Shown here piece after piece: positions 12,624-24,540 of a DNA stretch of 24,540 nucleotides. The notes beneath the pieces were generated by a model. It was not told the DNA's origin and searched no databases. It saw only the letters and a program-made list of their open reading frames with translations. The position numbers were made by a program, and so were the translations under genes. Within the stretch, counting starts at the first letter, position 1. The number at the start of each line of letters is the position of its first letter. Origin of the DNA: a virus. Where the stretch lies: positions 1-24,540 of the IMG/VR virus record IMGVR_UViG_3300020185_001503; one strand, 5' to 3'.

Positions 12624-13433
12624 TTAAGAATAAATCTTTGTATACTGTTCATAAAACTTTCCTGCTATAAATTCATGCCCCTCAGCGTTTGGGTGTAGGT
12701 CATCTTTACTTATACAAAACTTGCTGTCTAGTTTATCTTGCATAACAAACCCACCGAAATTATTCAAGAATGGATGACCAATATAGTGATCTGTCTCCAA
12801 GTCATAGAAACTTTCTATTTTACCAAACATGATAGACCACTCGATTTCCGAAAACCCAACTTCTTCGTCATCAAACGATTTTAAACACTGTTTATACTTT
12901 TGTAGGGTAAAAGAACCACAGAGCGGAGCCATGATGTATTTGATGCCCAGCAGCTTACAAAGTTCTTGTATCTGTAGCATATTATCAACCCACGACTTAA
13001 GATGTGTTTGGAACAATGAAGGTACAGAGCTAGAATAATGTACGTCAATCAAATCTTGCTTGAACATATGTTTGTACAAATCTCTTGATGCTTCTTGGCG
13101 TGGATGTAGCTTCATTTCTGGTCTAAACAATGCTAGTATAGGATTGAATTGGTAGTGGTTATATGCGGAAAATCTCCAAATTTCAGACCAACCAACAACA
13201 ACCATTTCGATATTCCTATGATCTTTCAGAATAGTCTTGGTGAGTGTATTTGTTATATAATCATTTCCAGCCCCAGATTTACCTTGGTTGACAACTTTCA
13301 ATCCAGAATACTCTCCTAATATCTCAGGCCACTTAGGGAAAGAAACGTCAAGATCAGGATGTGAAATAGATTTGAAGTTCTCATCTGTAAAGCTACATCC
13401 AGATGCTAAAATATACTTAGAAGACTTCGACAT
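12624..13433 (-). CDS. SGNH/GDSL-family hydrolase
   Basis: A 269-residue SGNH-hydrolase-like protein. Block I is GCSFTD at 12-17 (Ser14 nucleophile), block III GAGND at 54-58 (Asn), and block V DDLHPNAEGH near 244-253 supplies Asp and His. Such enzymes deacetylate or esterify glycans and lipids; in sugar clusters they remove or add O-acetyl groups. The ATG at 13433 with AAAGGAAATATA is preferred over an upstream GTG. It overlaps the carbamoyltransferase gene by 17 bases, so the two likely act on the same glycan (inference). Confidence 0.8.
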   Translation of the reverse strand: MSKSSKYILASGCSFTDENFKSISHPDLDVSFPKWPEILGEYSGLKVVNQGKSGAGNDYITNTLTKTILKDHRNIEMVVVGWSEIWRFSAYNHYQFNPILALFRPEMKLHPRQEASRDLYKHMFKQDLIDVHYSSSVPSLFQTHLKSWVDNMLQIQELCKLLGIKYIMAPLCGSFTLQKYKQCLKSFDDEEVGFSEIEWSIMFGKIESFYDLETDHYIGHPFLNNFGGFVMQDKLDSKFCISKDDLHPNAEGHEFIAGKFYEQYTKIYS

Positions 13434-14772
13434 TATATTTCCTTTGAAACTCAAGAGCCTCACCCCATGTGTTTACCATGGGCTGACCTTTTATATTTAG
13501 GCTTGTGTTCAAAAGCATTGGACATCCAGTCTTAGTGTGCCATTCCTCAAGAATTGTTCTCAGCACAGATTTGCAGTCTTTTCTAACAATCTGTACTCTT
13601 GCAGTTCCATCTACGTGAGTTACGGACTTATGATCATGCTTTGCCTTAGCGACAAACTGCATGTACTCGTTCATGGGTCCTTCGAAATATTCATCAGCAA
13701 ACTCTTCCAAGATTGCAGGTGCAAAGGGTCTAAATTTTTGTCTGCGTTTAACCTCGTTAATAGTGTCTTTAATGTGCCGTCTAGGATCAGCAATAAGGCT
13801 ACGATTACCAAGGGAACGAGCGCCAAACTCAGCACGACCATTTGCAATACCACAATAACCACTACTCCCAAGAGTTTTGATAACATCTTTAATTTTAATT
13901 TCACGTTTAATCTCCGTTCCTAAGTATGGGTCAACCCAATTTAATTTCTTGCCATATGCTAATGCCGCCGCCCCTAAAGACGATCCACAGTCACCTGGGT
14001 TTGGCATGATCCAGATGTTTTTACCAAGGTCAGCTACCTTAGTATTCGCAACACAATTCATGGCAACGCCACCCATCATAACGAGATTTTCGTGTGGGCA
14101 GTATTTCTTTACCAAATCAAGTATTGCGTCTTCAACAACAGCTTGTGCTGATGCGGCTATGTCTTCGTTAAACCAATGCGATGGTAAACGTGGAAGTCCT
14201 TTATGGCAATTCAAGTTCACAAGAAAGTCTTTGAGTTCATCATAGAACCTTGGCTCACCGTAAGCCGCCATACCCATTGTAATGTATTCGTCTTCCTGTG
14301 GCTTCAACCCTATGCATCTAGTAACAGCGGAATAGAATAACCCAATAGAGTAGGGATACTTGAAACTCTTTTTCTTGATCATCTTTGGTACGCCATTATT
14401 CATCCACGCTTTCCAAACAGAAACCGTATCCCATTCACCAATGGCATCAATCACCAATACATTACAAGACTCGAATTTAGATGTGTAAAAACCAGACGCC
14501 GCATGCGACTGGTGATGATAGAAAGAAACGTCGTATTCAGTACGACATGGCTTCCACCCTTGACCCGCATATATTTGTCGAGTTTTCTTAAGCCAAGGCT
14601 TTTCGTAGAATGCAACTGTTGCATCAACATCTTTGGGATATTGTGAGGGATGCACCCAACGATCATTCTTCTTACGACTGTAGCGTTCGGCATGAGTGGC
14701 AGATAGAATATTCCCATCCTTGATTACACTCACGCCTGCGTCGTGAAAACCTTCGCTTACACCTATGATCAT
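13417..14772 (-). CDS. NodU/CmcH-type carbamoyltransferase
   Basis: A 451-residue O-carbamoyltransferase. The N-terminal Kae1-like domain has the metal-binding histidines HHQSHAASGFY (H86, H87, H90), EDEYITMGMAAYG and the VMMGGVAMNC turn. The C-terminal domain has GRAEFGARSLGNRS, FRPFAPAI, VDGTARVQ and LLNTSLNIKGQP. The family makes carbamoyl-adenylate from carbamoyl phosphate and ATP and transfers it to a hydroxyl, usually of a sugar. It is shorter than NodU (about 560 residues). The ATG overlaps the preceding stop by one base. Likely part of the glycan-decorating set here. Confidence 0.92.
   Translation of the reverse strand: MIIGVSEGFHDAGVSVIKDGNILSATHAERYSRKKNDRWVHPSQYPKDVDATVAFYEKPWLKKTRQIYAGQGWKPCRTEYDVSFYHHQSHAASGFYTSKFESCNVLVIDAIGEWDTVSVWKAWMNNGVPKMIKKKSFKYPYSIGLFYSAVTRCIGLKPQEDEYITMGMAAYGEPRFYDELKDFLVNLNCHKGLPRLPSHWFNEDIAASAQAVVEDAILDLVKKYCPHENLVMMGGVAMNCVANTKVADLGKNIWIMPNPGDCGSSLGAAALAYGKKLNWVDPYLGTEIKREIKIKDVIKTLGSSGYCGIANGRAEFGARSLGNRSLIADPRRHIKDTINEVKRRQKFRPFAPAILEEFADEYFEGPMNEYMQFVAKAKHDHKSVTHVDGTARVQIVRKDCKSVLRTILEEWHTKTGCPMLLNTSLNIKGQPMVNTWGEALEFQRKYNVEVF
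14640..14662. repeat. 23-bp direct repeat, copy in the carbamoyltransferase gene
   Basis: Exact 23-bp match to 15166-15188, followed by one mismatch and four more matching bases. Both copies are read in the same frame and encode RWVHPSQ. Confidence 0.85.
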
Positions 14773-14963
14773 TAGAAAGTCTGGTTGTCTAAAAGCAGAT
14801 CGATCTTAGCTTCGATTGCATCCATACGGTCAAACACTTCTTCCCACTGTGGTGTAAGTTCTGTTATTTGTTCTGGTTGTTGATAATCACTTACGAATAC
14901 GTCAGCTTCGTATTCCATAATTTCAACATAGTCATCTTTGCTTTTAGTAAATAATTTAAACAT
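14772..14963 (-). CDS. Small coiled-coil-like protein, 63 aa
   Basis: Begins MFKLFTKSKDDYVEIMEYEA and ends WEEVFDRMDAIEAKIDLLLD plus NQTF. The C-terminal half has a heptad-like hydrophobic pattern suggesting a short coiled coil or oligomerisation helix. GGGGACGTT precedes the ATG. Its stop overlaps the carbamoyltransferase ATG by one base (TAATG), so it is translated just before it and could be an accessory subunit, although nothing proves it. Confidence 0.6.
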   Translation of the reverse strand: MFKLFTKSKDDYVEIMEYEADVFVSDYQQPEQITELTPQWEEVFDRMDAIEAKIDLLLDNQTF

Positions 14964-14971
14964 AACGTCCC

Positions 14972-15199
14972 CTATTCAGTTCCTGTCCAATGCCCACGAG
15001 TGTGCGCTCTACTAGTCAATTCTATCAAGCGACTAGTTACTTTTTTCAATGTCTTTTTCGCAATAGGATTTGTTTCCTCATTAGTCAATACTTGCATAAC
15101 ATCAATTAATTTTAGGTCTTCTTGCATAACCTTATTCACATCATATGGTTCACGTTTTTCAATCAATTGTGAGGGATGCACCCAACGACCATTACTCAT
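14972..15199 (-). CDS. Unknown protein with RWVHPSQ start, 75 aa
   Basis: Begins MSNGRWVHPSQLIEKREPYD and is otherwise a charged helical protein (LKLIDVMQVLTNEETNPIAK, then VTSRLIELTSR). The N-terminal RWVHPSQ and the underlying 23 bases are identical to part of the carbamoyltransferase gene 500 bases away. The ATG overlaps the upstream stop as ATGA. No function recognised; the rest of the protein is unlike the transferase. Confidence 0.6.
   Translation of the reverse strand: MSNGRWVHPSQLIEKREPYDVNKVMQEDLKLIDVMQVLTNEETNPIAKKTLKKVTSRLIELTSRAHTRGHWTGTE
15166..15188. repeat. 23-bp direct repeat, copy in the small gene
   Basis: Partner of 14640-14662; see that entry. It encodes RWVHPSQ at residues 5-11 of the 75-residue protein. 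Confidence 0.85.
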
Positions 15200-15375
15200 C
15201 TTTGCACCAATGGGTTTGTCGATTGGCTATCGTGATAATCACCACTTTGGTAGTAATCACGCACTGCTTCTTCTTTAATCATAACGCCATCACGCATACG
15301 ATATGTTACGATTTCACGTCTGATCACACCTTTAACGTCTGCATCAAATGCGCTTTTAAATGGTCCTTCAGTCAT
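15196..15375 (-). CDS. Small T4-like phage protein, 59 aa
   Basis: ATG at 15375 reads MTEGPFKSAFDADVKGVIRR, then EIVTYRMRDGVMIKEEAVRD and YYQSGDYHDSQSTNPLVQR before a TGA. The RDYY..GDYHDS..T.PL ending is a pattern I have seen in short T4-like cyanophage proteins, so the frame is probably real. AAAGGAATGAATA is a good ribosome-binding site. It is coupled to the genes on both sides (TAATG upstream, ATGA downstream). Function unknown. Confidence 0.7.
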   Translation of the reverse strand: MTEGPFKSAFDADVKGVIRREIVTYRMRDGVMIKEEAVRDYYQSGDYHDSQSTNPLVQR

Positions 15376-15788
15376 TATTCATTCCTTTCACATACTCTCT
15401 TGCGTAGATCACTAGAACTAAATCTATGATCACGCTTATTGAAATATAGATCAATGTCACGTCTACGGCATATGTCTTTGCCTGTAAACTCTTTGTCTCT
15501 ATACTCTTCACCTAATATTCTAACATCTAATTTATACATTGTCAAGATATCTTCTACATCAGATTCTGATCCATATGGAATAATCTCATCCACGTACTTG
15601 ACACCCCTAAGTTGGCTATAACGCTCAACGATAGTTTGTACTGGGCTGTTCTTTTCTGGGCGATCTGTAGAGGGGTCCATCTGCAATCCACAGATAAGAT
15701 AGTCACAATGATCCTTAGCTTCACGAAGCATTTGGATATGACCTGCATGCAATAGGTCAAAGGTGCTAAACGTTATTCCCACTTTCAT
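15375..15788 (-). CDS. Glycerol-3-phosphate-type cytidylyltransferase
   Basis: A 137-residue nucleotidyltransferase with the HXGH motif in STFDLLHAGH (14-17), a RYSQLRGVKYVDEI segment, and a C-terminal DHRFSSSDLRKR corresponding to the ISTT-type motif. The family (TagD-like) joins CTP to glycerol-3-phosphate or a similar phospho-alcohol to give CDP-glycerol or a related activated unit. Length matches TagD (about 130 residues). It could feed a phospho-alcohol decoration of a glycan. The ATG at 15788 begins the conserved core; the GTG at 15800 is less likely. Confidence 0.87.
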   Translation of the reverse strand: MKVGITFSTFDLLHAGHIQMLREAKDHCDYLICGLQMDPSTDRPEKNSPVQTIVERYSQLRGVKYVDEIIPYGSESDVEDILTMYKLDVRILGEEYRDKEFTGKDICRRRDIDLYFNKRDHRFSSSDLRKRVCERNE

Positions 15789-15790
15789 TT

Positions 15791-16420
15791 TCAATCCCAC
15801 AAATTTTCGTAGTATTTACCAAACAACATAAAGCCATTTGTCATACGTTCTTGGTGGGCTTTGCGGCCTTCAAGGTCTTTCCAAACAAGTTTTAATCCTA
15901 AGCCAAGACCCTCAGTTTTAGTAGGATCATCTTCATATTTGTAATAATCTTCTTCCCAGCTATCACGAAGCTTTTGCTCAAACGCCCAGATCATTTCCCC
16001 CATAATCCAATCCCAACGAGCATGATGAAAGTCATCTGTATCATACTCATTCTCTTTAGGAGGAGCATTGGTGCTACGAAGTTCTTCTGGAACATCTTCA
16101 TCATCTGTCCAAGGTGACCCGTGCTTAGTTTCTTTTAATTGTTTGAGCATAGGAATAATGATAGGAGCAAGAGTATGATCCATGCTCCATGTGTCGTACT
16201 TGTCTATACGAACTCTAATCTTTTGGCCACTACGCTTGTCAAGATACAAGTTGATAGTGTGATTATAAAGCCACTGCAAACCGTCTTCTACTTTTTCAAG
16301 AAACGATTCAAAACGAGTTGAGCTTTCTTCCCATCCCCACCGACCATACTTCTTGTCCATATAATGATCATGGACATAGCTTACCCAACGATGGCGATAT
16401 TTTCCAATATAAATTTTCAT
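15791..16420 (-). CDS. Conserved T4-like phage protein of unknown function
   Basis: A 209-residue tryptophan- and tyrosine-rich protein beginning MKIYIGKYRHRWVSYVHDHY. It has a dense acidic centre (TDDEDVPEELR, ENEYDTDDFHHARW) and GRKAHQERMTNGFMLFGKYY near the end. I recognise it as a protein found in many T4-like cyanophages but know of no function. GGAG precedes the ATG, after the zinc-ribbon gene. Confidence 0.75.
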   Translation of the reverse strand: MKIYIGKYRHRWVSYVHDHYMDKKYGRWGWEESSTRFESFLEKVEDGLQWLYNHTINLYLDKRSGQKIRVRIDKYDTWSMDHTLAPIIIPMLKQLKETKHGSPWTDDEDVPEELRSTNAPPKENEYDTDDFHHARWDWIMGEMIWAFEQKLRDSWEEDYYKYEDDPTKTEGLGLGLKLVWKDLEGRKAHQERMTNGFMLFGKYYENLWD

Positions 16421-16422
16421 AT

Positions 16423-16662
16423 CTAACTCCTAAAACTAAACATCGACATCGGGCATTCGTAGGTTGGGCAGTAATAGTTTGTAATGCCCTTAAACTCCAT
16501 GCCGCATTTTTGACATTTGCTTACACCGAAATGTGGATCAATGTCAGGTTGAAATGGATTCTTTGGCTCAAGCTTCCAAGTATTTTCAAGACCCGCGAGT
16601 CGCTGGTTGATTTCTTTTAGCTCTTTATAGATAGCCTCTATGTGTCCTTCAGTTGTTTTCAT
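16423..16662 (-). CDS. Small zinc-ribbon protein, 79 aa
   Basis: A coiled-coil-like N-terminus (HIEAIYKELKEINQRLAGLE) is followed by a probable zinc ribbon, C50-x2-C53 and C65-x4-C70 (KCQKCGMEF, YYCPTYECPM). Such proteins usually bind nucleic acid or act as small scaffolds; the role here is unknown. The ATG overlaps the dehydrogenase stop by 4 nt (ATGA), with GAGGGATGAAAA as ribosome-binding region. Confidence 0.7.
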   Translation of the reverse strand: MKTTEGHIEAIYKELKEINQRLAGLENTWKLEPKNPFQPDIDPHFGVSKCQKCGMEFKGITNYYCPTYECPMSMFSFRS

Positions 16663-17405
16663 TTTTCATCCCTCAACCTTTCATTATATTGCATTGCCTC
16701 TGATAGAATGGACAAGTCTACACCCTTTGTATGTGCTGTATTTAGTAAGGCTGACACATCCTTGGGGAAGCAGTGACCACCGTAACCACGATCATCTTCA
16801 TGTACATTTGTGTGGCTCTTACCAATTCTAGGATCATCTGAAACGTTTTGTAACAGTTCGTGTGGGTCAACCCCAATGGCATTCGCCATATCATACACTT
16901 GGTTGAAGAATGCAACTTTCATTGCTAGGTATGAGTTGCGGAAATACTTAGTCATAATTAAAATCTCAGGCTTTTTCACGTGTATAGGAATGCCTAAAGT
17001 AGATAGTATATTAACCCAAACACCAATAGAGCCACCACCAAGAGAAATAGATTCTTGCGATTTGAAGTCTTCCATTGCATGATTAGCACGTAAGTATTCG
17101 GGTGAAAATGTAATTTGTTTGTCTGGATAAGAACGGTTGATAAGTTCCCAACCTTCAAGACTGATTGTTGATTTGATCAAGATTGGTACATCATCTTTAA
17201 CACGTTCAATGATTTCATACACATTACTCATGTTGCACGAACCATCTTCATCCTCAGGTGTTGACACAGCTATGATCACTGCATCACAATCAACCCAATC
17301 TTTGTATCCTTTCATAGGATCATATACGTGTGTCTTATAATACGGCTGCAGGGACAACGCATGCGCCATCCCCACGAAACCATATCCACAAATTAAAACC
17401 TTCAC
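16659..17405 (-). CDS. Shortened UDP-glucose/GDP-mannose dehydrogenase
   Basis: A 248-residue nucleotide-sugar dehydrogenase (UGDH type). The NAD-binding loop is GYGFVG at 7-12, followed by VSTPEDEDG, the STISLEG substrate loop, FSPEYLR and the catalytic lysine region YFRNSYLAMKVAFFN. The nucleophilic cysteine lies in GGHCFPKD (Cys212). UGDHs oxidise UDP-glucose to UDP-glucuronate. Bacterial enzymes are about 390-430 residues; the C-terminal UDP-binding domain is missing while all catalytic residues remain. I chose the GTG at 17405, which gives a GTGA overlap with the upstream stop. The true nucleotide-sugar substrate is uncertain. Confidence 0.85.
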   Translation of the reverse strand: MKVLICGYGFVGMAHALSLQPYYKTHVYDPMKGYKDWVDCDAVIIAVSTPEDEDGSCNMSNVYEIIERVKDDVPILIKSTISLEGWELINRSYPDKQITFSPEYLRANHAMEDFKSQESISLGGGSIGVWVNILSTLGIPIHVKKPEILIMTKYFRNSYLAMKVAFFNQVYDMANAIGVDPHELLQNVSDDPRIGKSHTNVHEDDRGYGGHCFPKDVSALLNTAHTKGVDLSILSEAMQYNERLRDEK

Positions 17406-17731
17406 TTCTTTTCTTTCCAATCATTAATAAAATTAATCTTTCGATCCTCTGTCCACTCCTCTTTCAAGTAATCATTATCACGATCAAACAAATTCAAAAC
17501 ACGTTCTTTGTCGAGAACAAATGTGTCAACGATATTCTCTCCCATCCAATGTTGGCTAAACTCTTTTACTTCTTGCATGGTCACACTGTCTTGAATATAA
17601 GTAATAGCTTCATCAGTGGTCAAAGGCATGTCCTCTTCATCATCACTCATAGCACTAATTGGGATTGCATAACGCATACGGTGTGTGCTGATTACTGTAG
17701 TCACTACATAAAGTTCATTATCTTTAGTCAT
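17402..17731 (-). CDS. Conserved small T4-like phage protein, 109 aa
   Basis: Begins MTKDNELYVVTTVISTHRMR and includes YAIPISAMSDDEED, a helical middle (TDEAITYIQDSVTMQEVKEF) and DTFVLDKERVLNLFDRDN. I have seen this pattern in T4-like cyanophages without a function. AAGGAAAATTAA precedes the ATG. It is linked to the dehydrogenase by a GTGA overlap. Confidence 0.7.
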   Translation of the reverse strand: MTKDNELYVVTTVISTHRMRYAIPISAMSDDEEDMPLTTDEAITYIQDSVTMQEVKEFSQHWMGENIVDTFVLDKERVLNLFDRDNDYLKEEWTEDRKINFINDWKEKK

Positions 17732-17741
17732 TTAATTTTCC

Positions 17742-18293
17742 TTATTTTTCAATGTAGAAGATGTGGCTTCCGATACGAGCAACACGGTTCAGAGATGACG
17801 CCCAGTAAGCTTTCATCCAGTGAGCATGGTAGTGCGTAGCGCCTTGTGTCATTCCACGAAAGTTTCCGTTCATATAGATATCGTGTGCGTACTTACGTGA
17901 CTGTTCCCAAGAGTCGTCATCATATGGTTCGTCATGCTTGCCATCGCAATACCAAGAAAACTGACAAGAACGACTGTCTTTCTTGTAACCTTGGTGGACA
18001 ACATCACACACTGTATCTGGGTAGCGTGTACTAACTACACGGTTTAAAACAACATCACTAACACTCATTGCATCTACTAGACTTTTTGCATGTGTCTCAA
18101 AGTAGATATTCAACGCCAAACACTCCATCTCTTCAGCTTGCGTCTCAGCCTGTTGGGCTTGATAAGACTCAAGGATACCCTGTAGTACCGCTTCGTCTTC
18201 ATGTGCTTGAGCAACAGTTCCTGCATATATCATAGCGGCAAATACTGCGGTGTTGATAGCTACTGCGATTGTGTTCTTGTAAATAGTCTTCAT
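17742..18293 (-). CDS. Secreted SleB/CwlJ-type cell-wall hydrolase
   Basis: A 183-residue protein with an N-terminal secretion signal (basic MKTIYKN, hydrophobic core to about residue 27, AQA site near residue 30). A hydrolase_2 (SleB/CwlJ) domain follows: ALNIYFETHA with probable catalytic Glu66, VVLNRV, CDVVHQG, CQFSWYCDG, QGATHYHA and IGSHIFY. These enzymes cut peptidoglycan, probably as lytic transglycosylases, and occur in alphaproteobacterial phages and hosts. The signal could be cleaved or act as a signal-anchor. A near-consensus promoter precedes it, suggesting control separate from its neighbours. GAGG precedes the ATG. Confidence 0.88.
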   Translation of the reverse strand: MKTIYKNTIAVAINTAVFAAMIYAGTVAQAHEDEAVLQGILESYQAQQAETQAEEMECLALNIYFETHAKSLVDAMSVSDVVLNRVVSTRYPDTVCDVVHQGYKKDSRSCQFSWYCDGKHDEPYDDDSWEQSRKYAHDIYMNGNFRGMTQGATHYHAHWMKAYWASSLNRVARIGSHIFYIEK

Positions 18294-18325
18294 TACTAAG
18301 CCTCAATTTCTGTTTCTATACAAGA

Positions 18326-18354
18326 CTTATATAATGATTCGTTTAGTCTGTCAA
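18326..18354 (-). promoter_or_regulatory. Near-consensus sigma70 promoter for the cell-wall hydrolase
   Basis: TTGACA (18349-18354), an exact 17-base spacer and TATAAG (18326-18331) on the minus strand, 33 bases before the hydrolase ATG. The TGA stop of the upstream gene lies inside the -35. Confidence 0.8.
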
Positions 18355-18584
18355 CTATAATTATTCTTTATTTGAGTTAACACATTCTTCAGTTTAAAGA
18401 CGATACCTGTTTTCAAAGCTTCCTCTGACCAAAAGGTATCGTCCTCTGTTATTGCCGACAAAGATTCTAACAACATCATGTTTTGCCCTTTCAAGGCATC
18501 AATCTCATTGTACAACTCTGTCTTATCAGACTTGAGGTGTTCAATCTCTGCAAATAGAGCATCTATGTTCGGCTTTCTTATCAT
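18351..18584 (-). CDS. Small coiled-coil protein, 77 aa
   Basis: Reads MIRKPNIDALFAEIEHLKSD then KTELYNEIDALKGQNMMLLE, a convincing heptad pattern over residues 8-42, with a shorter amphipathic C-terminal helix. It is probably an oligomeric scaffold; the partner is unknown. Its ATG overlaps the stop of the GT17-sulfotransferase gene as ATGA, so it may be made together with it. Confidence 0.65.
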   Translation of the reverse strand: MIRKPNIDALFAEIEHLKSDKTELYNEIDALKGQNMMLLESLSAITEDDTFWSEEALKTGIVFKLKNVLTQIKNNYS

Positions 18585-20113
18585 TTGTGTTTCTCGTAGA
18601 AATCATAATCTTCTTGGTAGATTTTCTTCACAAATGCCAACTGTTCTTCCGACAAGTCATCTCTCAAGATTTCTTTTTTCGTTTGGTTTAACTTATGGCT
18701 GACCTTAAATGTTTTCGAAACATCATGTTTGTCAACAACCGTAAACTTCTTGAACTTATCTTGATCAACAAACCACGACTGTGGGTGGAAGTGGTGAAGT
18801 TGATGGTGCGAAGATAGTTTGTTGAAGTTTGCAAAGAAATAGTCAATCTTCTCTTGTTTAGTACAAGTTTTCAGATCAACACCAAACGATGCGAACATAT
18901 CTTCACCATAGTGATAGTAGCGTTGCTTTTCTACTAGATAAGCATTGATACAAGACTCGAAACGTTCGACTGGATCGGAGAATACCATAATTGGTTTTCC
19001 TCTCAACTCATCGTAATCATCTGTATCTCGCATGATCTGTTTGCGATCAGGGAATGTTTCCTTGATTGTTACACTACAGCTTCTTGGCACTTCAAACCAA
19101 TTACGTTCACCATCAAGGTTATATAGCAATGGGAACTGAAGCTTCTGACACCAGAAACAATTACAAGCACTGAACTGGTAATCTTCATCCATTTTCACTG
19201 AAGGTAACAAGAATTCTTTGATCTCTTCATCTTCAAAGATCAACTTAGGTAGTTGCTCAACAGGGAACCTCTTTAGATGGTGGTTTACATTACCATCAGG
19301 TGCAGTACCTTCTTCCATAAGAGTGTCACCAAGTTTATCGTACTCAGAGTAACCTTTAGCGCCATCTGCCATCCACTCAAAAGAGTCGTGTGCATGAGCA
19401 AACGAGTCTGCCTTTGCTTGACGTTGCTTTGCGTTACCCATCCATGCAAAGTGCCAACCCATATCTTGGATTACTTTGTTGTTATGTGTAGGCCAACGAA
19501 TAGGCCATTCGATAGCACCACATCTAATGCGGTTAACAGAGGTCTTCATGATCTGAGCCTTAGTCGCAAAGAACATAGCCTTCCACCAAACAACATGACT
19601 ACCATCTGTATTGAATGCTCTTAGGTCAGCACGTCCTTGTAGGTATGCCAATGGAATTTTAAGAATAATGTCTTGGTGGTTAACACACATTCTCGCAACC
19701 CATCTGACGTTCTCAGGCTTAATGATCTCATCTGCATCGCCATAGATGAACACATCGTTATCATTAAACTGCCCCATTGCTTGCATAACTGCATCTTTTT
19801 GGAGACGTTCACGAACTCGTGCATACAGAGAATCTTGATTGTCTTTATTGACACCAGCGTTATTGATGTCAACTTTCATGATCTCTAGTTCTTCTGTTTC
19901 TGGGATGTCATGCTCAATGTAAATGATCTTTTCCATTGGCAACCCTTGTTTGAGCGCAATGTCAAGAAACTTGCGTTGAACTGGTTTACCGCTGTGTGTC
20001 TTGTTTGACTCCACAATGATAAACTTGTCAACGACATCCTTCAAGAGGTTCACTCTTAGTTTTAGCAGTTCTTCGCCATAAGGGGCAAAGAATGGAAAAC
20101 AATCAACAATCAT
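18581..20113 (-). CDS. GT17-like glycosyltransferase fused to a sulfotransferase-like domain
   Basis: A 510-residue two-domain protein. Residues 1 to about 300 follow the GT17 family (beta-1,4-N-acetylglucosaminyltransferase type): an LLKLRVNLL segment, VDKFIIVESNKTHSGKP, YGDADEIIKPENV and GWHFAWMG. Residues ~335-460 show sulfotransferase-like motifs: PRSCSVTIK (343-351, 5'-phosphosulfate-binding type), FSDPVERFESC (378-388, 3'-phosphate-binding type) and HFHPQSWF (441-448). It may add a sugar and a sulfate to the same glycan; PAPS could come from the APS-kinase-like protein at 15-458 (inference). It overlaps both neighbours through ATGA junctions. Confidence 0.75.
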   Translation of the reverse strand: MIVDCFPFFAPYGEELLKLRVNLLKDVVDKFIIVESNKTHSGKPVQRKFLDIALKQGLPMEKIIYIEHDIPETEELEIMKVDINNAGVNKDNQDSLYARVRERLQKDAVMQAMGQFNDNDVFIYGDADEIIKPENVRWVARMCVNHQDIILKIPLAYLQGRADLRAFNTDGSHVVWWKAMFFATKAQIMKTSVNRIRCGAIEWPIRWPTHNNKVIQDMGWHFAWMGNAKQRQAKADSFAHAHDSFEWMADGAKGYSEYDKLGDTLMEEGTAPDGNVNHHLKRFPVEQLPKLIFEDEEIKEFLLPSVKMDEDYQFSACNCFWCQKLQFPLLYNLDGERNWFEVPRSCSVTIKETFPDRKQIMRDTDDYDELRGKPIMVFSDPVERFESCINAYLVEKQRYYHYGEDMFASFGVDLKTCTKQEKIDYFFANFNKLSSHHQLHHFHPQSWFVDQDKFKKFTVVDKHDVSKTFKVSHKLNQTKKEILRDDLSEEQLAFVKKIYQEDYDFYEKHK

Positions 20114-20691
20114 CGCTTAGTCCTTTCTAGCACGGTCAATCCGTTATTATTTGTTCTAAATTCTCTAAACTTCCACTCAGGATTTTCCATAACAAAGTGA
20201 ACGATAGAAGCGATCAATCCTTCACCAGCCATTGGTCTTTTGTCCTTGAAGTCTCGCCAGTTCTGCTTCTCATCTCTACACCCATAAGTATGCGTGTCAT
20301 GAAATGCAAGGAACTTCCTAGCTTTATTGCCATGCATCTTAAGCTCTCTTTTTAGCTGAGAACCAGAATGCCAAGTATCGATAAACAATAGGTCAGTTTC
20401 TTCAATTTCTATTTTCAAAACGTTTTCTTCCATGTACTTCACGTCTTTACCAACAGTCTTAGCTCTTCTGAACAAATCCATCACTTCTTGATCTAGTTCG
20501 ATGTCATATGATCTTAGAGCGGCGTTAGTGTTGAGAAACGCTCTACTACTTTGTCCATCACGTACTCCCATTTCTGTGATGTGTTCACATTCCATTCCCA
20601 ATGTATAGAGCAACTCAATATGCTCATTGATATCAGAGAATGTATTCTTGGCGTTGTTGTATTCGCCTTCTATAAATTGCACAAAACTCAT
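20110..20691 (-). CDS. Class I methyltransferase-like protein (Methyltransf_24/CmcI type)
   Basis: A 193-residue Rossmann-fold protein with a SAM-site motif, ITEMGVRDGQS (about 39-49), LRSYDIELD for the second strand, and LLFIDTWHSGSQLKRELKMH plus FHDTHTYG. This pattern is seen in Methyltransf_24 and cephalosporin-hydroxylase-like proteins of sugar clusters. It probably methylates a sugar. The ATG at 20691 makes an ATGA overlap with rmlB and has AGGTGG upstream. An in-frame ATG at 20724, with GAGGTTACTGA upstream, would add 11 residues and is the alternative. Confidence 0.75.
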   Translation of the reverse strand: MSFVQFIEGEYNNAKNTFSDINEHIELLYTLGMECEHITEMGVRDGQSSRAFLNTNAALRSYDIELDQEVMDLFRRAKTVGKDVKYMEENVLKIEIEETDLLFIDTWHSGSQLKRELKMHGNKARKFLAFHDTHTYGCRDEKQNWRDFKDKRPMAGEGLIASIVHFVMENPEWKFREFRTNNNGLTVLERTKR

Positions 20692-21710
20692 ATGTCTAAC
20701 CACCTTGTATTTTTTAATGTCCATTCAGTAACCTCTGCTAGACGCTCACGTACTGGCTTTGGTTCCCAACCCAATTGATCTTTCATTCTATCGCCACACA
20801 TAGCATAACGTAGATCATGCCCAGGTCTTGACGAATGGAAGTCAACCATCTCGTATTTTAGTTCTTTACCTTGTGCCTCAGCAATGATTTGAGCAACCTC
20901 AAGGTTATCTAATTCTTCAGCACCAACAATGTTAAACTTCTGCGACTTGATCCCTGTTCCATCATTATTACGTTGGAACTCTGATTGGATAAGGTTTAGC
21001 GTAGCATCTGCTACATCATTCGCATGGATGTAATGTCGGCTTCCTGCCTTTGTCTTTTCAGAGTTACTGTGTACTGTCACTGACTTGCCATCACGGATAT
21101 TTCTAATGCACATGGGAATAAACTTCTCAGGATGCTGACGCTCCCCAAATACGTTCATTGTGTGCGTAATGTAGATTGGCATGTCGTAAGAGTTTTCGAA
21201 AGCAACGGCAAGTTCTTCGCCACCAGCTTTTGAAGCAGAGTATGGGTTAGTACAGTTGTAACGATCATATTCTTTATACTTGACACCTTCTGGTGCAGGT
21301 CCGAATACTTCATCAGTCGAGAAGTAAATCAAACGTTCAAGACTGTCTAGTTGTCTAGCATAGTTCAGTAGGTTGCATGTACCCACTACGTTATCCATCA
21401 CAAATTCCATAGGATGGTCAATAGAACGATCCACGTGCGAACCTGCCGCCATGTGAATTACGTAATCAATACGTCCAATATCCGCTGTGATCATGGGGTT
21501 TAGTTCAGCTTTCAGATCATGGTAAACTACCCTAAATCTTTTTCGCTGTGCATCAGTAAGGTCTGATAGAACGTCATGTAGACGGTTCAAGTTCCCACTA
21601 TAATCAAGACGATCTAGCGAAACAATTTCCCAATCGGTTCTTCTTAAAATTTCTGAAATTGTGTGGTGTGCAATGAAACCTGCACCACCAGTTACTAGAA
21701 CTCTTTTCAT
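20688..21710 (-). CDS. rmlB: dTDP-glucose 4,6-dehydratase (RmlB-like)
   Basis: A 340-residue extended short-chain dehydrogenase. It has the NAD loop GGAGFI at 8-13, catalytic Thr132, Asp133 and Glu134 in STDEVFG, Tyr157 and Lys161 in YSASK, and SRPGHDLRYAM near the end. All RmlB catalytic residues are present. The reaction is dTDP-glucose to dTDP-4-keto-6-deoxyglucose, the entry to deoxysugars such as rhamnose. No rmlA, rmlC or rmlD is visible here, so host enzymes or a different end-product are needed. GGAG precedes the ATG; a hairpin and a late box lie just upstream. Confidence 0.9.
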   Translation of the reverse strand: MKRVLVTGGAGFIAHHTISEILRRTDWEIVSLDRLDYSGNLNRLHDVLSDLTDAQRKRFRVVYHDLKAELNPMITADIGRIDYVIHMAAGSHVDRSIDHPMEFVMDNVVGTCNLLNYARQLDSLERLIYFSTDEVFGPAPEGVKYKEYDRYNCTNPYSASKAGGEELAVAFENSYDMPIYITHTMNVFGERQHPEKFIPMCIRNIRDGKSVTVHSNSEKTKAGSRHYIHANDVADATLNLIQSEFQRNNDGTGIKSQKFNIVGAEELDNLEVAQIIAEAQGKELKYEMVDFHSSRPGHDLRYAMCGDRMKDQLGWEPKPVRERLAEVTEWTLKNTRWLDI

Positions 21711-21742: not shown

Positions 21743-21766
21743 AGCACCCCCTTATATGGGGATGCT
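21743..21766 (-). other. Intergenic RNA hairpin upstream of rmlB
   Basis: The minus-strand RNA can pair AGCAUCCCC with GGGGGUGCU (9 bp including one G-U) around the 6-base loop AUAUAA. The plus-strand RNA would have a C-A mismatch at that position, so the fold belongs to the minus transcript. There is no U-run after it, so it is more likely a processing, stability or 5' leader hairpin than a simple terminator. Confidence 0.55.
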
Positions 21767-21776: not shown

Positions 21777-22247
21777 CTATTTCAACCAACCTATTTTCTT
21801 GCCTTCAGAAATTCTTCGTTCTGCTTCAGCTTGCGATCCTGGGTAACGCCAAGCCCAAAATACAATAAGTGCCATGGTAATGGCTAGGTATAGTACCGCC
21901 TTTGGGTTGCCTGTAGTGAACCACAGGAACGCTAGGGAAGATGACATTACTGCCACCATAAGGTACTTTGCTTTTTGTGGATACACACGATACTTAGACC
22001 AATTCTTGATAAAAGGTCCGAAAGTCTTGTGGTTCAAAATCCAATTATGGAACTTGTCACTAGACTTAGCAAAACAGAATGTAGCGCCAAGGATTGGCGT
22101 ACTCCACGGTAGTCCTGGGACAATAACACCCAAGTAGGCAACGCCCACCAAGATGATACCCAACACAAACCAAAATGGTTTCATGAGTTTTTTCATAGTG
22201 TTCTCTTTCTTACGAGGTGCGAAGAAATTAAATTCAAGTTGATTCAT
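21777..22247 (-). CDS. DUF454 (YbaN-like) inner-membrane protein
   Basis: A 156-residue membrane protein of the DUF454/YbaN family. The core has three to four hydrophobic segments, [20 protein letters not shown] (25-44), [14 protein letters not shown], and a C-terminal pair around residues 98-134 that includes the short soluble GNPK. The conserved VPGLPWSTP and [18 protein letters not shown] motifs of the family are present. A 17-residue extension ([17 protein letters not shown]) precedes the usual family start at Met18. The ATG at 22247 has AAAGAGG upstream and an ATGA overlap with hemA, so coupling to ALAS is tight. Function of the family is unknown. Confidence 0.85.
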
Positions 22248-23458
22248 CTTAAAACCTCTTTTAATGCTTCGACTAATTCTACCATCATGATATCGGTATG
22301 GAATGGAGTAGGAGCAATACGTAAACGTTCAGTTCCTACTTCCACTGTTGGCGAATTAATCGGTTGAATGTAAATACCGAATTCATTTAGTAGCCTATCA
22401 CTTGCTAATTTGCACTTGAAGGCATCGTTGACCATAACAGGGATAATATGAGTACAAGCATTAGGGTGAATATCCATACCTGCTTCAACCAACATTCCCT
22501 TTAGCTTAGCAGTTCTTTCTTGGTGCTTCTCTCTAATGTTGTTGTGATCTTTCAAGTAACTAACAGAAGCAAGAACACCTGCGCATAAAACAGGTGACAT
22601 ACTTGTTGTGAAAATAAAGCCAGCAGCGACTGATCTAATAGCATCCAAGACTACTTGTTTACCTGCAATATAACCACCTTGAACACCAAATGCCTTACCC
22701 AATGTACCGTTGATAATATCAATACGATCTGATAGACCCAACTTCTCACAATACCCACCACCAGTTTCACCATAAAGACCAACAGCATGAACTTCATCGA
22801 TGTAGGTAAAGGCTTCGTATTTGTCTGCTAGATCACATATAGCTTCAATAGGTGCAACATCACCATCCATGCTATACACAGACTCAAACAAGATCACAGG
22901 CATCTCATTGGCTTCTGTAGACGCCTTTAGATGCGCTTCTAGGTCAGCCATGTCATTGTGCTTAAAGATGCGCTTGTTAGCCTTAGAGTGCTTCACACCC
23001 ATTATAAGGGAGTTGTGGTTCTTGTCATCCGAAATAAAACATACGTTTGGCAAGATACGAGAGATAGCCACAAGCGACCACTCGTTTGCCACATATGCAC
23101 TGGTAAACAACAGGGAAGATTCTTTTCTATGCAACCCTGCTAATACACGCTCAAGAGTTACGTGGTAATGTGACGTACCACCAATATTACGTGTACCACC
23201 AGAACCTGCACCAGTTTGATCTAATGCAGTGTGCATTGCATCTATAACATACTGATTTTGACCCATACCAAGATAATCATTAGAACACCAGTTTACTATA
23301 TTCTTAGGTGCGTATTTGCCGTACCAAATGGAACGTGGAAAATTCCCACGCTCCCTTAGTATATCATTGAAAGTACGATAACGACCATCTTCTTTAAAGT
23401 CTTCAACCGTCTGGTTAAAGTAGTCGCTATAGTGTCGGTTACGCTTCACAGGCGGCAC
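22244..23458 (-). CDS. hemA: 5-aminolevulinate synthase (ALAS)
   Basis: A 404-residue PLP-dependent alpha-oxoamine synthase. ALAS-type features: [19 protein letters not shown] at 25-43, [25 protein letters not shown] at 83-99, [20 protein letters not shown] (Asp221 and His224) and the PLP lysine in TLGKAFG (Lys255). Length equals cellular ALAS. It condenses glycine and succinyl-CoA to 5-aminolevulinate, the first step of heme and other tetrapyrroles by the Shemin (C4) route. The N-terminal pattern argues against KBL or BioF. Start is the GTG at 23458 or 23449; no ATG is available and both overlap nrdA. ALAS is mainly alphaproteobacterial, which suggests the host group. Confidence 0.95.
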
Positions 23459-24540
23459 AATCTGCTGACATTACGCGCTTACGTGTTAGCGACTGAGCCG
23501 CTGACATTGAGAACGCATAGTACAAGCTCTTAACACCCATCTCATTTGCATACAGATACAATGCGTTAATTTCTTTAACTGACATATCTGGGTCAAGCAT
23601 CAAATTCAAGCTTTGGCTTTGATCAACATATTGCTGACGGATAGCCGCTTGATCGATGATTGTGTTAGGGCTGATCTCAGGGAATGTCTTAAATACAGCA
23701 CGTTCATCATCACTCAAGAATTCCAGATGCTGTACAGAACCATCGTGGTTCTTAATTGATTCCCAAACATCAGGGTTGTCCTGATCTTTTTCTACCAACA
23801 ATTCCTTAAGGTAAGGGTTGCGGATAGTAACTTTCATCTTAGCAAGGTCTTTCACATATGCGTTAGAGAACTCAGGTTCGATGGATTGTGATACTTGCCC
23901 AAGAATAAAGCTTGATGACTTAGTAGGTGCAATAGCCATTGTTGTTGTGTTACGCATGCCATAACCCTTCAACAGCGAAGGTTCGCCCAATGTTACTGCC
24001 ATTTCCTTAGACGCCGCATATGTTCGTTCTTGCATAGTCTGGGAAATTTCAAGGTTCAACTGTGCCGCTTCTTTAGACTCAAAAGAAATCATATTAGACT
24101 GTAGATATGAATGCCAACCAAGGACACCAGCACCCAACGCACGATGGTTCACAGCGAAGTCACGAGCGCGTTTCATGTAGATTTGACCTTCAGTTTTACG
24201 GATGAACTCTTCACACACAGTGTCAAGGAACATAGTAAGAACTTCAATGGCATCAGTATCTTTGATCTCATCCCAATGTAGTAGGTTCAAAGAAGATAGA
24301 ACACATGTAAATGTTTCTTCGTGGCTAGATGGCAACGCAATCTCAGCACACATGTTAGAAGCATGTACACGCATATCTTTATCTTTGTATACTTGTGGAC
24401 GCCCATCATTCACGTTGTCAGAGAACAGAATGTAAGGATAACCAATCTCTGAACGACGCTGTAGTACCTTAGCCCACAGACGACGCTTCTCAGGGTCACC
24501 TGACTTCATCTCATCAATGAACTTATTGCTTACTGTAATG
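23439..24540 (-). CDS. nrdA: Ribonucleoside-diphosphate reductase alpha subunit, C-terminal part
   Basis: The reading frame stays open to the window edge ([20 protein letters not shown]), so the 5' part is outside. Visible class I NrdA features are the active-site [11 protein letters not shown] (Asn, Cys, Glu), [24 protein letters not shown], the radical-transfer pair in KSLYYAF, and the C-terminal redox cysteines DCAAC. The enzyme reduces NDPs to dNDPs for phage DNA synthesis, using glutaredoxin or thioredoxin as reductant. It overlaps hemA by 20 bases. An nrdB gene is not in view. Confidence 0.95.

Follow-up and report, generated by a model that had tools for sequence, protein, structure and literature searches.

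Which process could be served by a phage gene for 5-aminolevulinate synthase (ALAS) that is coupled to a gene for a membrane protein of the DUF454/YbaN family? The question is raised by an IMG/VR record of 24,540 bases (IMGVR_UViG_3300020185_001503), a genome fragment that was analysed as a whole and is referred to here as the window. The window carries a T4-like gene set, and its marker genes conflict on the host, one leading to Sinorhizobium phiM12-type phages and another to cyanophages.

The locus and its enzyme

Table 1. Features of the ALAS-DUF454 locus in the window
Feature	Position	Strand	Evidence
nrdA 3' part (class I ribonucleotide reductase large subunit), upstream of ALAS, truncated by the record end	23439..24509	-	TIGR02510, PF02867
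Phage ALAS (valaS), 404 aa, GTG start	22244..23458	-	TIGR01821 match
ATGA shared by ALAS stop and DUF454 start	22244..22247	-	sequence read directly
DUF454/YbaN-type membrane protein, 156 aa, ALAS partner gene	21777..22247	-	PF04304 match
Hairpin AGCATCCCCATATAAGGGGGTGCT directly 3' of DUF454 stop	21743..21766	-	sequence read directly

An earlier note on this DNA had described an ALAS gene that overlaps nrdA at one end and is joined to DUF454 by an ATGA at the other, and both junctions were confirmed (Table 1). The overlap with the 3' end of nrdA, a gene recognised by TIGR02510 (505 bits over profile positions 207-560) as well as PF02867, spans 20 nt, and the ATGA has the geometry expected of translational coupling. 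The hairpin is a possible end of an nrdA-ALAS-DUF454 transcription unit. Adjoining the pair, at 12624-21710, lie nucleotide-sugar and surface-modification genes (carbamoyltransferase, cytidylyltransferase-like, UDP-glucose dehydrogenase, epimerase). No tRNA gene was found in the window.

The ALAS reaches 552 bits against TIGR01821, far above the curated equivalog cut-off of 338.55, and among solved structures its best relatives are those of ALAS (7x98 and 2bwn). The catalytic residues are all present under the numbering of the earlier note, namely the PLP lysine K255 and the PLP-binding D221 and H224, and T89/N91/I92 of the succinyl-CoA site align with T83/N85/I86 of the R. capsulatus enzyme. 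Of the residues involved in heme feedback, His342 of R. capsulatus is replaced by K348 in the alignment, and the C-terminal tail with Cys400 is missing. The same loss is found in 22 of 22 aligned phage relatives.

A published report of ALAS genes in aquatic phages, mentioned in the earlier note, does exist, namely that of Wegner et al. 2024 (PMC11480375). As described in its main text, the phage gene occurs alone or together with heme oxygenase and bilin reductase, lacks the heme-feedback residues and, in the case of a freshwater phage, complemented an ALA auxotroph. By analogy with this homologous phage enzyme, the window enzyme probably makes 5-aminolevulinate. It is hardly credible that it is another alpha-oxoamine synthase (glycine acetyltransferase or 8-amino-7-oxononanoate synthase) at a locus unrelated to tetrapyrroles: the fold is common to these enzymes and their models reach 317 bits at most, but the KBL, BioF and SPT models each stay under their own cut-off and only the ALAS model passes, the ALAS-type T/N/I residues are kept, bilin genes accompany ALAS in related phages, and the homologue described in the main text of PMC11480375 complemented the auxotroph. 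A KBL/BioF identity, which according to the earlier note would have spoken against its proposal, is rejected on scores and residues.

Phage ALAS is, then, a known gene type, and the novelty of the locus concerns its partner. The main text of Wegner et al. 2024 contains no DUF454, YbaN or "membrane protein" (PMC11480375), and the literature found on DUF454/YbaN included nothing on phages or auxiliary genes, in line with the earlier note's impression that the pairing was new. Neither the conserved, re-formed partnership with DUF454 nor the connection of DUF454 with heme genes of bacteria seems to have been described before.

Pairing of ALAS and DUF454 in phages

The pairing is real, widespread and far beyond chance. 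With ALAS as bait, DUF454 was found within 3.5 kb in 36 of 39 close viral loci having at least 3 kb of flank on both sides; on such adjacency in related phages the earlier note had made its proposal depend. A broader ALAS profile places DUF454 nearby in 22 of 40 viral loci. The other 18 comprise 12 heme oxygenase-bilin reductase-ALAS cassettes and six loci with ALAS alone, among which two records have DUF454 elsewhere. Most phages with the cassette are without DUF454, which is therefore not required for ALAS function. When DUF454 is the bait, ALAS is near in 10 of 12 and in 49 of 61 loci, these being the closest matches, so that the proportion for phage DUF454 genes as a whole is smaller. When NrdA served as an independent bait, DUF454 was recovered in 28 of 32 loci with ALAS versus 12 of 48 without it (Fisher p 5e-8, relatedness ignored). 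Across 58 ALAS clusters with DUF454 nearby (clustered at 88% identity), DUF454 lies downstream in sense orientation in 55, antisense in two and upstream in one, and the gap is about 45 nt or less in half of them. A tblastn search of INPHARED with both genes gave just weak, KBL/BioF-like or apparently bacterial matches, and hence no isolate in that collection carries the pair.

Quick trees (LG+G4, with few alignment columns for DUF454) were built for both genes with alphaproteobacterial homologues, as the earlier note had proposed. Each phage family came out as one separate clade: 74 phage ALAS rows against 22 cellular rows (SH-aLRT 100), and 33 phage DUF454 rows apart from 40 sampled alphaproteobacterial ones. 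This separation, and the location of both genes within a region of host-like genes, would agree with a cargo region into which two host-derived genes were inserted together once, to be co-inherited without joint function. Such hitch-hiking is nonetheless improbable, given the repeated re-pairing of differing ALAS and DUF454 lineages, the order swaps and the antisense placements. Mapping six DUF454 lineages on the ALAS tree requires 11 changes, against five if the trees were congruent. The identities of individual pairs diverge in both directions, with 64% for ALAS and 88% for DUF454 between L201 and L327, 71% and 95% between L075 and L082, where the gene order is swapped, and 80% and 41% between L029 and L038. 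The comparisons show that DUF454 lineages have been re-paired with ALAS lineages, which favours selection for keeping the two genes linked over mere joint inheritance. Hitch-hiking is also at odds with the co-occurrence of DUF454 and heme oxygenase where ALAS is missing, and with a parallel linkage in bacteria, both described below.

Phage-type pairs were also met in sequences filed as cellular. The MAG "Rhodobacteraceae bacterium Water_Bin34" includes three contigs (FZLS01000020, FZLS01000039 and FZLS01000005; L093, L094 and L095) that carry an ALAS-DUF454 pair amid T4-like genes (primase, thymidylate synthase, nrd), and the other ALAS of this bin (L435) groups with cellular ALAS. These contigs may explain the Rhodobacter-like bin within the phage ALAS group of Wegner et al. 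A further phage-type pair, on a 335-kb contig of a Neomarinimicrobiota MAG (PBPT01000016.1, L097), lies near PEPCK, alternative oxidase, a Pst-like phosphate transporter and an AlgH-like gene, and could be explained by transfer into a cell, by mis-binning of a jumbo phage or by a chimeric contig.

In two other viral loci (L164:7172-7993 and L200:1717-2616), DUF454 stands directly 3' of a class-I fructose-bisphosphate aldolase-like gene, with no ALAS nearby.

DUF454 and heme genes in phages and bacteria

The partner protein scores 98.2 bits against PF04304 (gathering cut-off 35.1) over profile positions 1-114 of 115. It thus shares a Pfam family with bacterial DUF454/YbaN, a Fur-regulated inner-membrane family from whose members the phage proteins differ by forming their own clade. 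Hydrophobic helices are predicted, hydrophobicity being strongest at about residues 20-50, and the AlphaFold2 model is all-helical (mean pLDDT 81, pTM 0.54). Comparison of this model with the PDB and with viral models gave no match under E 0.8 and is thus uninformative on function; a sequence search of the PDB returned nothing except one chance match. Residues W69, H73, G77, W83 and K94 are largely common to cellular members, and W69, H73, W83 and K94 are candidate contact residues, as are the less conserved H67 and C58. An N-terminal extension (MNQLE...FF, 22197-22247), conserved within the window's DUF454 clade and absent from other DUF454 clades, precedes a second in-frame Met.

In phages, DUF454 co-occurs with heme oxygenase as well as with ALAS. 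Among viral records with a length of 70 kb or more, PF01126 heme oxygenase is present in 22 of the 24 that bear DUF454, several of them without an ALAS match, and in one of the six that lack it, the cassette phage G218 (Fisher p 0.0008, for records not drawn at random). Two DUF454-bearing records above 100 kb have neither ALAS nor heme oxygenase. The arrangement of the genes varies: in L082, L165 and L166 the order is DUF454-ALAS-bilin reductase with overlapping ends, and in L201, L279-L285 and L290 the ALAS-DUF454 pair and a heme oxygenase-bilin reductase pair are transcribed divergently. The valaS gene and the hemO-pcyA/X-valaS cassette (Wegner et al. 2024, PMC11480375) resemble the window in having an ALAS of T4-like aquatic phages without heme-feedback residues, and the cassette is borne by related phages in the clade of the window ALAS. 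They differ in that the window ALAS is paired with DUF454 and that no heme oxygenase or bilin reductase match lies within the 24.5-kb record, the rest of the genome being outside this fragment.

A comparable linkage is seen in bacteria. A clear heme oxygenase was found in 24 of 299 Pseudomonadota genomes; DUF454 lies within 3 kb of it in 10 of the 24, and at less than 300 nt in nine of those. Haem oxygenase has been reported to co-occur with DUF454 near T11SS genes (PMC12282271). In an Acinetobacter locus (CAKLQH020000010.1, L476), a TonB-dependent receptor and heme oxygenase are followed by ybaN as the last gene, 28 nt downstream of heme oxygenase. These uptake loci share with phages the DUF454 gene directly beside heme oxygenase, but import heme via TonB receptors, whereas the phage module makes a heme precursor instead. 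The sequence itself is filed as "Acinetobacter phage MD-2021a" and looks like bacterial chromosome, with a heme-uptake locus and amino-acid transport genes.

Another connection is to CydDC, which transports heme after taking it up laterally from the membrane (PMC10374445). In genome G190, directly behind CydD, one 767-aa frame fuses CydC (TIGR02868, 437 bits, cut-off 329) to DUF454 (124 bits), and in G017 (L250) the cydC and DUF454 genes overlap. The order of G190 is represented by one genome among those searched, so the fusion stands on a single assembly, and a wider search of plasmids found no further CydC-DUF454 fusion. The phage locus differs from these in that no CydC or CydD gene is seen in the window. 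Besides these cases, DUF454 adjoins HemW in L244 and L246, and ALAS in the bacterial genome G132. Most other alphaproteobacterial DUF454 loci have no heme gene nearby, and E. coli, included as control rows, has DUF454 and lacks PF01126 heme oxygenase.

Three further apparent long DUF454 frames were not counted as fusions: L507 matches no second Pfam family, and L508 and L510 look like upstream read-through in GC-rich DNA.

A proposed role of the pair

The reading that we favour, with a probability of about 0.6, is that of a phage tetrapyrrole module in which a feedback-deaf ALAS increases the supply of heme, which DUF454 handles at the inner membrane. In this two-gene module of an aquatic T4-like phage, ALAS would condense glycine and succinyl-CoA to 5-aminolevulinate and, being without the known heme-feedback residues, would drive heme synthesis in the infected host. 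The DUF454 protein, translated together with ALAS, would handle the resulting heme in the inner membrane, most likely by holding or relaying it there. The consumer could be a heme oxygenase, for which the phage usually has a gene at another site in its genome, or an assembly path of respiratory oxidases, such as CydDC. Counting against this reading are the many bacterial DUF454 genes without an adjacent heme gene, the presence of DUF454 in E. coli, which lacks a PF01126 heme oxygenase, the scarcity of DUF454 in cassette phages, the two large DUF454-bearing records with neither ALAS nor heme oxygenase, and the failure of the fold search to yield a relative.

The earlier note had DUF454 acting on a membrane-linked heme or iron step. 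The link with heme has gained independent genomic support, from heme oxygenase, HemW and ALAS neighbours and the CydC fusion in bacteria and from heme oxygenase in phages, and as a reading of gene neighbourhoods it is well supported. The biochemical step of DUF454, with heme as its putative ligand, and the raised flux in infection, also proposed in the earlier note, are inferred.

The strongest competitor, which we regard as unlikely, is that DUF454 serves iron, not heme, as a Fur-type iron-economy membrane protein, accompanied by ALAS, heme oxygenase and ribonucleotide reductase because all of them bear on the iron supply of the infected cell. Indeed, ybaN belongs to the Fur regulon of E. coli (PMC10164565, PMC7157518), and DUF454 of Avibacterium is induced under iron restriction or starvation (PMC7970244). 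In L161, DUF454 comes after nrdA, nrdB and glutaredoxin, just as the window ALAS comes after nrdA. However, fusion to CydC and proximity to HemW and ALAS genes speak for heme and not for free iron, and in other clades nrdA is not consistently beside the ALAS-DUF454 pair.

The heme-handling module could be a special case of a wider role. As a tentative extension, to which we give somewhat less than even odds, DUF454/YbaN would serve bacteria generally as an inner-membrane carrier or adaptor for heme, passing it between makers (on the ferrochelatase side), degraders (heme oxygenase) and exporters (CydDC). Phages would have captured it repeatedly, along with ALAS and heme oxygenase, and so gained control of the heme economy of the host. 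The presence of DUF454 beside heme genes in both aquatic T4-like phages and bacteria suggests a role for the iron-regulated ybaN, and phage and bacterial neighbourhoods together yield a testable prediction for this uncharacterised gene of the Fur regulon, namely membrane heme handling. For the phages, DUF454 adds a fourth, membrane component to the set of tetrapyrrole genes.

A small membrane-like protein of 63-66 aa is encoded after ALAS or DUF454 in heme oxygenase-bilin reductase phages (L291:8188-8388, L290:8586-8777 and L280:8592-8789); the L291 protein has no Pfam match, and the small protein is possibly a further member of the module.
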